Source: Halorubrum sp. 2020YC2 (GTDB lineage: Archaea; Halobacteriota; Halobacteria; Halobacteriales; Haloferacaceae). From it: a stretch of DNA of 64,000 nucleotides. The translations under genes and the position numbers were made by a program. Shown here piece after piece: positions 5,011 through 45,535 of this stretch (positions are counted from its first letter, which is position 1; each line of letters begins with the position of its first letter). Where the stretch lies: the NCBI RefSeq assembly GCF_018623055.1, contig NZ_CP076019.1, positions 2,294,001 to 2,358,000 of the forward strand, written 5' to 3'. The notes under the pieces were generated by a model. It searched no databases. It worked only from the letters and a program-made list of their open reading frames with translations, and was not told the origin of the DNA.

Positions 5011-5414
5011 CTAGTTATAAGTAGATCTGCGGTGGCGCGTGCCGACGAGCAGCCATCAGGCTGCGAGTCGCACGCGCGAGGGAGTCGGCCGACCGGAGCG
5101 AAGCGGAGGGAGGCCGACGAGGCTGGGGAGGCGTGAGGTGCGGGGCGGGACTCAAAGGGGCAGCCGCGAGGCGGGCGCAGGCGACGTAAGCACCGCAGGA
5201 GCGAGTGAAACGAGCGACGAGGAGCACAGCGAGCGTGCGCCCGTCTCGCGGCTGGGGCTTTGGCGGTGTTCGCCGTCGACCGTCGGTCAGAGACGTATCG
5301 CCGAGCGGCTGGGGCTTTGGCGGTGTTCACCGCGGAGTCATCGTTTACGTATCGCCGAGCGGCTCTTTGGCGGTGTTGGCCGTCGGTCCGCAGTCAACGA
5401 GCGTTTATAACTAG
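5011..5414 (+). repeat. Dispersed structured intergenic element, copy A
   Basis: Forward copy of the element also found at 11291, 20611 and 45065. It is bounded by a 10-bp inverted pair, CTAGTTATAA (5011-5020) and TTATAACTAG (5405-5414). Conserved blocks are GAGGCTGGGGAGGCGTGAGG (from 5119), GGGACTCAAAGGGGCAG (5147-5163), AAGCACCGCAG (5188-5198) and GCTGGGGCTTTGGCGGTGTT (5251-5270). Possible helices: 5035-5042 with 5070-5077 (8 bp), 5084-5090 with 5112-5118 (7 bp), and 5161-5179 with 5236-5254 (19 pairs, one of them G-T). The tail block is repeated at 5308-5327 and, shortened, at 5361-5377. It lies between the convergent Lrp and icd genes. No credible protein is encoded. Confidence 0.8.
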
Positions 5415-11290: not shown

Positions 11291-11630
11291 TCACTAATAA
11301 ATGACTGGCGACGGATCGGCGTCGGTAGAAGTCCCCAAAGCCCCAGCCGCGAGGACTCGCGCGGCTTGCTGCGCGCCTCGCTCAGTCGCTCGCGTTGCTC
11401 GCTCCTTCGCTGCGGTGCTTGCTACGCCGTGCTTCGCCCTCGCGGCTGCCCCTTTGAGTCCCACCCGACCGCACCGCAACCGCACCTCACGCCTCCCCAG
11501 CCTCGTCGGCCGGCCTCCGCTTCGCTCCGGCCGGCCGACTCCCTCGCGCGTGCTGCTCGGCCGCGGGGCGGCCTCGCAGGCACGCGCCGGCCGTGAAACC
11601 GGCCGAGCCTCGTCGTTTACTTATAAACGA
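11291..11630 (-). repeat. Dispersed structured intergenic element, copy B
   Basis: Reverse-strand copy between the divergent cupin and cofD genes. On the minus strand it starts with a TTTATAAGT box (about 11620-11628), then the 8-bp stem 11580-11587/11546-11553. Next is an 11-bp stem (11529-11539 with 11505-11515) closing around GCGAAGC, then the GAGGCTGGGG, GGGACTCAAAGGGG and AAGCACCGCAG blocks. A perfect 11-bp long-range stem (11438-11448 with 11344-11354) precedes CTGGGGCTTTGG. A further palindrome at 11559-11573 closes a 3-base loop. The rest of the gap (11141-11290 and 11631-11716) holds no gene; the cofD promoter must lie in or next to this copy. Confidence 0.8.
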
Positions 11631-17506: not shown

Positions 17507-17667
17507 GGCGCCGAACCAGTAGCGCGCCGCGTTCGCGGCGCTCGCGGTCCGATTCTGCGGTCTCGTTCGTCTCGAAGAGCGGTCGCTCCGCCGTTCGGTC
17601 CAGTTGATTGACTTACCGACCCGACTCGTGAACCGCCTCGGGGTCAAGCTCCGAGGCTTCCCGTGGA

Positions 17668-18942
17668 TCAGTCGGACACTCCCGCGACACCATCGGTCTG
17701 ATAACCTCGAACGGTGTCGTGGGTCACGGTCGGGGCGTCCACGGCCCCCGATGCCTGCCGTCGCACCTTTCGCACCGTAGGAAGGCTGTTGAGAACAGGC
17801 ACATTCCAATCGAGTTTCTTGATTCCTTTCACAGCGATGTTGACGCTTACACCACGGTCGCTGTGGTCTTGATGACCGCACGACCGACACTTGAACCGCT
17901 TCTTGTTGCGGTTCGCACGCTCCGTATGACCGCACATCGGACACCGCTGACTCGTGTACTCAGGGTTAATCCACGCGGTCGGAATACCCTCGAACGCCGC
18001 CTTGTACGACGTATAGAACTGGAGGGCGCGGAACGGGAGGTGGTGCAAGCGTCGGTTCATCCGCGTGCCGTAGTCGATACTGTCGCGCACCTCTTTGAGG
18101 TCTTCAAAGACGATACACGGCTTGTCGAACTGATGACTCCAGTCCACGATGTGTCGAGACACCTTGTGGAGTCGGTCACAGATAAACCGTCCCTCGCGCC
18201 CTTTGAGTGTATCGTGGATGCTATCTTTCCCCGCGTTCTGGACACGCTTTCGCATCGTGAAGTAGCGATGGCGCTCGAACTTGATTTCGGGGAAGTCGAT
18301 GACGAGCGTGTCTTCGACGCCATCCTCGGTGAGTGCGGTGAGGGCCACGTTATCCTCGTTTACGTCTACGCCGATGATCGTCCGGGAGTCCTGTTTGTCT
18401 CGAACAGTTTGCTCGGTGTTGGTGACGTTGATGTGCAACTCAGCGGTGTCGTTGTGGAACAAGGCTTCTGCTGTCCCAATTTTCCACTCGTCACTTTCGA
18501 GTGCGGTCTTGAGGATGTCGAGGTGGGCGTCACTTCCTTTGAGGACTCCCTTGACGTGTTTGTACGGCTTCGCGCTGATCCGAAACGCCACATCACCATC
18601 GTCGGTGAGAGACAGATTGTACCCTTCCTCGTAGTTCGCACGAAGCGGATACGCACCGTCTTTGGTATGACTCGGGTGGCCGAAGTCGTCGTACTCGTAG
18701 TAGTTCTCCATCGCCCCGAGTGCCTTCGAAACGACGCGCTGTGTCGTGTTTTTCACGAGGTTGGCGTCGTCAGCCACGCTGTCGGGGATCGCGTCCCAGT
18801 CCACGCCTTCTTTGGCGAGCCTGATGGTTTCGTTGTACACCGAGCGGGCTTCGAGTGTGGCGTCGTACAGCAGACTCTCGTTGTCATTCTGGATGTCGAG
18901 TTGGAAGTCCAGAGTCTTGATGAGAGCCTGTGAGTTGGTCAT
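17668..18942 (-). CDS. tnpB: TnpB RNA-guided endonuclease (IS200/IS605 OrfB)
   Basis: 424 residues. TnpB is a compact RuvC nuclease guided by a short RNA made from the element end, and the ancestor of Cas12. RuvC acidic residues are all present: Asp193 (IIGVDVNEDN), Glu280 (CIVFEDLKEV) and Asp362 (DHSDRGVSVNIA). A zinc ribbon with Cys334/337/352/355 (CPMC, CRSC) lies between the last two. The N-terminal 180 residues form the RNA- and DNA-binding part. Its ATG overlaps the stop of the DUF2080 gene (ATGA). The guide RNA would run off the left end, from the tnpB 3' region through the hairpin at 17636-17656. It appears intact although tnpA is not. Confidence 0.95.
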   Translation of the reverse strand: MTNSQALIKTLDFQLDIQNDNESLLYDATLEARSVYNETIRLAKEGVDWDAIPDSVADDANLVKNTTQRVVSKALGAMENYYEYDDFGHPSHTKDGAYPLRANYEEGYNLSLTDDGDVAFRISAKPYKHVKGVLKGSDAHLDILKTALESDEWKIGTAEALFHNDTAELHINVTNTEQTVRDKQDSRTIIGVDVNEDNVALTALTEDGVEDTLVIDFPEIKFERHRYFTMRKRVQNAGKDSIHDTLKGREGRFICDRLHKVSRHIVDWSHQFDKPCIVFEDLKEVRDSIDYGTRMNRRLHHLPFRALQFYTSYKAAFEGIPTAWINPEYTSQRCPMCGHTERANRNKKRFKCRSCGHQDHSDRGVSVNIAVKGIKKLDWNVPVLNSLPTVRKVRRQASGAVDAPTVTHDTVRGYQTDGVAGVSD

Positions 18943-19147: not shown

Positions 19148-19546
19148 ATGGGTGAGAAGCGGTCGAACCACACGGTGTACAACGTCAAATACCATTTCGT
19201 GTGGTGTCCGAAGTATCGACACGCGATACTCGAACCAAATGAAGATTCGCTGGTAGCGAGTTTCCGTGACGTGTGTGATGAGTACGGCTACGAGATATAG
19301 TCGCTCCACATCTCGCCCGACCACGTACACCTGTTCCTCTCTGCCCATCCGAAGCACGCACCGAGCGAGATCGTGCGAACAGTCAAGAGCATCACGGCAC
19401 GAGAGATGTGGGAATAGCACGAACCGTTCTTGGAAGAATATCTGTGGGGCGGTGGCTTCTGGGAACAGTCGTACTACATCGGAACGGCGGGAGAGGTATC
19501 CAGCAAGACAATTGAACGGTATATTGATCGGACAGAACACGTCTGA
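19148..19546 (+). pseudogene. tnpA: TnpA (IS200-like Y1 transposase) with two in-frame amber codons
   Basis: The reading frame encodes a complete 132-residue HUH/Y1 transposase (KYHFVWCPKYRH near the start, HUH motif in SPDHVHLF, catalytic Tyr region EQSYYIGT), but TAG codons occur at 19298-19300 (codon 51) and 19415-19417 (codon 90). Both sit where a CAG (Gln) codon would give natural-looking sequence (YEI-Q-SLHISPDH; MWE-Q-HEPFLEEY), so each needs only one C-to-T change. The catalytic residues lie after the first stop, so the product should be inactive. Lack of other frame damage suggests recent inactivation. Confidence 0.9.
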
Positions 19547-20610: not shown

Positions 20611-20945
20611 ATATATGAGCGGTTGCCATCGCCGATGCTGAGAACGCCTCCAAAGCCCCAGACGGCTCCGGTCGAAGGCCTCGCTGCGCTCCTCGCTCAC
20701 TCCGTTCGCTGCGGTGCTTGCGTCGGCCGTCTTCCCGGAGCCGACTGCCCCTTTGAGTCCCTCCCGGCACCGTCCCTCACCCCACACCTCCCCAGCCTCG
20801 TCGCTGGCGCCAGCGACTCCCTCGCGCGTGCTCTCGCCGGCGGCTTCGCCGCCGGCTGTCAGAGAGACTTTCGGTCTCTCACTACTCGCGGCCGCCTTCG
20901 GCGGCCACTCGGAGGCACGCGCCACCGCATCGCATTGATGAGTCC
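20611..20945 (-). repeat. Dispersed structured intergenic element, copy C
   Basis: Reverse-strand copy between divergent DUF5810 and aIF2-gamma genes. Stems: 20915-20922 with 20824-20831 (8 bp); the self-complementary 20800-20817 (18 bases); and the long-range pair 20735-20747 with 20659-20671 (12 of 13 positions), whose sequence differs from copies A, B and D on both arms. Three extra palindromes with three-base loops lie in the outer loop at 20836-20856, 20862-20880 and 20890-20906. Conserved blocks are present near 20785-20799, 20743-20759 and 20711-20721. The remainder of the gap, up to 21040, holds no gene. Confidence 0.8.
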
Positions 20946-45064: not shown

Positions 45065-45535
45065 ATTTATAAATCGATGCGGTGGCGCGCCCCGGTGAGC
45101 GGCCCGAAGGGCGCGAACCGCCGGTGCGAGGGAGTCGCGAGCGAAGCGAGCGACGAGGCTGGGGAGGCGTGAGGTGCTGTGCGGCTGTGGTCGGGTGGGA
45201 CTCAAAGGGGCAGCCGCGAGGACGAAGCCCGGCGCAGTAAGCACCGCAGGGAGCGAGTGGAACGAGCGACTGAGGAGCGTGGTTCGAGACGCTGGAGGCG
45301 TCTCGTCATCGCCGGAAATCTTCGATTTCCGGCTAGCAGTCAGAACGCTTCGCGTTCTGACGACATCACGAAAGGCGCGGAGCGCCTTTCGAACGACAGC
45401 AAGCCGCGCGAGTCCTCGCGGCTGGGGCTTTGCCGGTGTTGCCGCCGATCCGCCGGCACTCGTTTATAACCGAGCGACAGAGGCCTTGGGGGTGTTCGCG
45501 GGCTCTCAGCCCACCGACTTGTAGATAACCGCTCG
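45065..45535 (+). repeat. Dispersed structured intergenic element, copy D, with a palindrome array
   Basis: Forward copy between nrdJ and pyrG. It starts at ATTTATAAAT (45065-45074), followed by GATGCGGTGGCGCG. Stem 45134-45138/45150-45154 is short. The conserved blocks GAGGCTGGGG (from 45155), GGGACTCAAAGGGG (from 45197) and AAGCACCGCAG (from 45239) are all present. A perfect 12-bp long-range stem joins 45211-45222 and 45413-45424. Inside its loop are four unrelated palindromes: 45285-45305, 45311-45333, 45339-45361 and 45369-45391. The last three have 10-bp arms and three-base loops, spaced by 5-7 bases. Two tail modules follow (45421-45475 and 45485-45535). The gap 44917-45064 and 45536-45669 holds no gene. 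Confidence 0.8.

Follow-up and report, generated by a model that had tools for sequence, protein, structure and literature searches.

A non-coding element present in four copies (A-D) in the 64,000-nucleotide stretch of Halorubrum sp. 2020YC2 analysed here (the window; G000:C1:2294001-2358000) has a long-range helix whose arms covary in larger alignments, and it is probably a dispersed, non-autonomous element that occurs in the Halobacteria and has a conserved fold in its sense strand. Two identities come into question, an RNA family that has gone unrecognised and a mobile element of a new sort; most likely it is a BOX- or MITE-like non-autonomous element that selection keeps folded. The preliminary description had read paired change in the four copies as a mark of selection on RNA or single-stranded DNA (ssDNA) structure. 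That reading holds in a larger alignment, against controls and a tree-based null, and in other genera; neither a lack of covariation above phylogenetic expectation nor failure of the stems in most copies was found.

Copies in the window

Each copy has a 5' module (module I) and a hairpin module (module II, P3), located by matches to two models (R2, module I; R1, P3).

5015..5020, no strand: TTATAA 5' of copy A, from the sequence; a position favoured in many copies
5028..5145, + strand: copy A module I, with TGCGG 5' boundary, P1 hairpin, P2 hairpin and conserved GAGGCTGGGGAGGCGTGAGG; R2 match at 5030-5142, 112 bits
5146..5266, + strand: copy A module II (P3), CAAAG-GGG-CAGCCGCGAG...CTCGCGGCTG-GGG-CTTTG; R1, 127 bits
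5255..5415, + strand: copy A 3' tail, decayed units of the 57-bp type, from sequence, phase and period
11332..11463, - strand: copy B module II (P3); R1 match, 114 bits
11481..11594, - strand: copy B module I; R2 match, 98 bits
20647..20762, - strand: copy C module II (P3); R1, 105 bits; arms 20659-20671/20735-20747
20776..20929, - strand: copy C module I, with extra hairpins; R2 match, 58 bits
45066..45073, no strand: TTTATAAA 5' of copy D, from the sequence; favoured upstream position
45078..45178, + strand: copy D module I; R2 match, 62 bits
45196..45436, + strand: copy D module II (P3), with inserted hairpins; R1, 52 bits over 45196-45318; arms 12/12

The helices proposed for the four copies pair as described. 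In copy A (5161-5179/5236-5254) the 19 positions comprise 18 Watson-Crick pairs and one G.U; copy B (11344-11354/11438-11448) pairs at 11 of 11 positions, copy D (45211-45222/45413-45424) at 12 of 12, and copy C at 12 of 13, with one A.A. Random pairs of 13-mers, taken 60-220 bases apart in the same window, reached 12 of 13 in 38 of 200,000 trials. A second stem had been credited with 7, 11, 9 and 5 pairs in copies A, B, C and D; these counts stand when made from the ends, but the copy C stem (20800-20817) is an 18-nt perfect palindrome without a loop, so only about seven pairs are possible there as a hairpin. Four copies by themselves would be thin evidence of covariation.

Covariation and the folding strand

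Across 69 copies from the same genome, arms that belong to the same copy match at 11.67 of 12 positions and arms drawn from different copies at 10.46, and 0 of 2,000 permutations reached the same-copy value; adding other species brings the sample to 164 copies with the P3 helix. In an alignment of P3 (A1, 63 sequences), 22 of 32 pairs show changes on both sides, and the covariation score is 0.388, compared with 0.147 after shuffling and at most 0.065 in slid registers. The corresponding alignment of module I (A2, 47 sequences) has both-side changes in 14 of 25 pairs and a score of 0.339 (0.127 shuffled). For 31 distinct P3 sequences of other genera, both-side changes occur in 25 of 32 pairs and the score is 0.557, against 0.160 shuffled and at most 0.063 slid; these controls matter here because the alignment was fitted to the model, which favours the model's structure. 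As a tree null, the substitutions of each column were scattered again over a FastTree tree, an R-scape-style approximation rather than R-scape output. At E<0.05, all against all, five of the 32 pairs of A1 and three of the 25 of A2 are significant, while significant pairs outside the structure number zero for A1 and one, a neighbouring pair, for A2. Covariation above phylogenetic expectation, as expected of a conserved structured RNA, was thus seen with our own approximation of R-scape.

The mismatches indicate which strand folds. P3 arms contain 69 G.U and 11 A.C mismatches among the 164 copies (29 and 2 in the own-genome copies). Pooling all helices gives 142 G.U and 24 A.C, a count to be read knowing that one of the column pairs is U.G almost throughout; module I alone has 21 and 13, which is not significant. 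A G.U here corresponds to an A.C on the opposite strand, so it is the sense strand that folds, although the asymmetry alone does not choose RNA over ssDNA. When P3 is compared in 20 orthologous pairs (one of them two copies within one locus), pairing is broken at 22 positions, and against 40 paired double changes there are 9 single wobble changes. The predominance of double over wobble changes suggests that gene conversion, or the replacement of whole copies, has probably acted in addition to stepwise compensation of single bases.

Anatomy of the element

Module I begins at a sharp 5' boundary, TGCGG, followed by P1, P2 and the motif GAGGCUGGGGAGGYGUGAGG, after which comes a G-rich segment that differs in length between copies. 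The part GGGGAGGYGUGAGG was considered as a small ORF or a Shine-Dalgarno sequence, an idea dropped since the Y position varies. P3, the class-wide module, is a long irregular hairpin with an outer helix CUGAAAG/CUUUC and a covarying helix of 12-13 bp. Its plan is GGGACUGAAAGGGGC-helix-GGGGGCUUUC, laid out as CUCAAAG-GGG-helix ... helix-GGG-CUUUGG, and the GGG/GGG internal loop hardly varies; in 12 sequences the outer helix CAAAG/CUUUG has become CGAAG/CUUCG. The interior, in which 2-bp helices alternate with GA/GA-type loops around GACGNAAGCACYGCAG...GGAGCGCAGCGAG, covaries too. P3 is absent in three copies (L134, L138, L174), minimal in three more (L185, L195, L216) and elsewhere interrupted by extra hairpins. 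In one copy (L214, 4916-5038, + strand) the P3 interior is present as its own reverse complement within intact outer arms, an inversion inside the hairpin.

In Halorubrum, P3 is fused behind module I and is followed by a tail of 57-bp units that hold TTATAA, at +41 and again at +98. Many of the tail matches (n=84) lie in 57-bp steps, and the units decay with distance from the element (identity to consensus 0.84, 0.52 and 0.43). One locus (L325) is a tail without a body. Five perfect tandem 57-bp units stand 3' of one copy in the own genome (L023, G000 C1 524447-524700), which suggests a recent tandem expansion. Copies in Halorussus and Haloparvum (L187, L130) also have repeated tail units, in which the 3' end of P3 takes a form particular to those copies.

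Copy number and distribution

Allowing at most one mismatch, the core motif GACTCAAAGGGGCAG occurs at 140 places in the 3.06-Mb single-contig own genome, and its reversed control at none. Beyond 1.6 Mb the copies seemed to favour one strand, but this was rejected as an artefact, copies B and C being absent among the matches listed. In 391 Halobacteria genomes the core is abundant almost only in Halorubrum (6-186 places per genome where present, with none in three genomes) and one further genus (G195), and named organisms with the same core are mostly Halorubrum species. The module I model matches all 46 Halorubrum genomes and 85 of 382 Halobacteria genomes (21 of 85 genera). The P3 model (E<=1e-4) reaches 287 of the 382 genomes and 70 of the 85 genera; a single genome from a different family has as many as 91 matches. 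The sequence at 16 loci outside Halorubrum resembles GGGACUGAAAGGGGC-helix-GGGGGCUUUCNNGGUGUU, with P3 alone in some and module I first in others. Head-to-head P3 pairs about 30 bases apart were seen in several genomes of other genera (for example G160:C1:764204-764469 and G242:C1:181216-181476).

In a search of the window against Rfam 15, tRNA alone reaches the gathering threshold and nothing overlies the four copies at E<=5; at the relatives' loci only tRNA and the L4 leader reach threshold, with no family for the element. A literature search, with subscription papers mostly outside it, found no description of the element, and an earlier report is possible. Phages gave no match, and 25 exact 15-mer matches in viral contigs were taken as roughly the number expected by chance from so large a collection. 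The intergenic repeats of HF1-group haloviruses are AT-rich promoter repeats (PMC7230728) and, judged by that description, are unrelated.

Genomic sites and mobility

The copies are intergenic, with one inside a called ORF, and by our own ORF calls the four neighbour arrangements (32, 27, 22 and 20) reveal no strong orientation preference. Core model matches are found at the copy D site in 14 of 30 loci and at the copy A site in 12 of 30, own locus included in each case; a few are more distant from the gene, by several hundred bases, and may have been inserted separately. Orientation to the neighbouring gene is always the same at these sites, so at least some insertions have been inherited in common or shared through recombination; others are missing. 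In several relatives (L332, L333, L336, L339-L342) site D appears, by reading alone, to lie downstream of a tRNA gene. A near-identical copy, flanks included, stands at two distant places in the own genome (L324 and L326, at 1413120 and 2520540). Apart from such flank-sharing pairs, the paralogues compared reach only about 92%, that is, there are no very recent copies.

A TTATAA-like box lies upstream in about 60% of copies, mostly starting some 20 bases 5' of GGCGCG (mode -20). The usual archaeal spacing from TATA to transcription start would put the start at about +10, inside P1; the upstream TATA may therefore be an insertion preference or junction, not the promoter of an RNA. Two apparently empty sites (L339, L368) diverge from occupied relatives within the TATA, although deletion could also account for them. 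No flank identity like that of a target-site duplication (TSD), as expected of a MITE, was detected: left and right TATA contexts score 12.77 within copies and 12.83 across copies (p=0.62). Plasmid carriage looks rare. All 85 exact core matches in one genome (G009) fall on its contig C1, and one Halorubrum plasmid matches; so few plasmid copies are unusual for an active mobile element.

No partner enzyme was found among the Y1 transposases and reverse transcriptases examined. Y1 transposase is present in 37 of 45 Halorubrum genomes, with no evident link to copy number by inspection and no Y1_Tnp hit in six high-copy genomes (G186, G291, G193, G006, G009, G011). Reverse transcriptase (PF00078) is found in none of the 45, control genomes being positive, which excludes a host reverse transcriptase at the sensitivity of the Pfam model. 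The window itself has a Y1 transposase frame with two in-frame TAG stops (19172-19531, + strand) and, near it, an ORF whose end carries a sub-threshold match to sot2652, a TnpB-associated RNA (17612-18942, - strand); together these are probably a decayed IS200/IS605-type element.

Proposed origin and maintenance of the fold

On the reading we prefer, a BOX- or MITE-like non-autonomous element, copies would have arisen as DNA insertions made by an enzyme, and the fold and unpaired motifs would then be kept since a protein recognises the folded strand, a transcript more plausibly than ssDNA. In that strand P1, P2 and P3 would be paired and GAGGCUGGGGAGG exposed or protected by protein. The short 57-bp units may be remnants left after the hairpin body was deleted between short direct repeats (GCGG); loss of P3 or microhomology deletion is seen among the copies and is consistent with this proposal. 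A bolder version, which we offer tentatively and rate as rather unlikely, is an ancient class-wide family, reaching about 190 copies in a genome, in which a protein binds the folded strand, insertion is strand-specific and adjacent to TATA-like sites, and excision leaves 57-bp scars.

The folded form could instead be ssDNA, on which a strand-specific recombinase acts (IS200/IS605-like or attC-like), the junction resembling TATTTATAA. We consider this possible if doubtful: it would suit the lack of a TSD, a tail period in phase with TTATAA, the divergence of the two empty sites within the TATA, the inferred start inside P1 and the inverted P3 interior of L214, and DNA tolerates G.T too. However, there is no linked enzyme, the six genomes named above combine many copies with no Y1_Tnp, the empty sites may be deletions, and IS200/IS605 elements end in short hairpins rather than in a fold of 300 nt. 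A family of host RNA genes, or a regulatory RNA, with each copy transcribed from the TATA just upstream, would explain the favoured distance of that box, conservation across the class and the chromosomal bias; random neighbour orientation, wide swings in copy number and a start that would fall within P1 make it improbable.

Explanations that dispense with selection on the fold, or invoke copying through RNA, fare worse. Complementarity might be renewed with no selection on structure, by template switching at the hairpin or by gene conversion from arm to arm or copy to copy, as the excess of paired double changes in orthologous copies would allow. The bias of G.U over A.C already weakens this idea, the unpaired motifs are invariant and covariation extends to isolated 2-bp helices and across genera, all of which leaves it very unlikely. 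A SINE-like retroelement or mobile intron is hardly credible: repeated 3'-end units do resemble 5'-truncated copies, but the absence of PF00078 from the 45 Halorubrum genomes largely refutes it.

Comparison with known systems

The first reading is supported and extended, to a class-wide structured family that is absent from Rfam and BOX-like in behaviour. If this is right, Rfam and, as far as the papers searched show, the literature lack a structured family that occurs in about three-quarters of the sampled Halobacteria genomes and can reach about 190 copies in each; the alignment is a strong one for finding the element's protein partner. It would also let one ask, in culturable organisms, whether RNA repeats of the BOX kind exist in Archaea, or whether Archaea carry a mobile system of a new, strand-specific sort.

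Large, ornate RNAs of the HEARO, OLE (PMC9723947) and GOLLD type likewise have conserved unpaired motifs; the present element differs in its far higher copy number and in having no Rfam match. IS200/IS605 elements and their sot/omega RNAs (RF02657) share with it strand-specific folding, the lack of a TSD and occurrence in haloarchaea, whereas the element has no match in Rfam and a copy number that is not tied to Y1_Tnp. MITEs, ERIC and REP/REPIN sequences (reviewed in PMC10969869) are likewise short, non-coding, dispersed and without an enzyme of their own; in contrast to them, the element has no terminal inverted repeats (by eye) and no TSD, has a multi-helix fold and has no partner transposase that we could find. 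The BOX elements of Streptococcus pneumoniae are likewise high-copy, intergenic, modular and predicted to fold as RNA, all of which the present element is too. BOX elements are bacterial and shorter, whereas this element is archaeal and class-wide, with strong covariation and a 57-bp tail, and the likeness is one of behaviour, with no claim of sequence homology.
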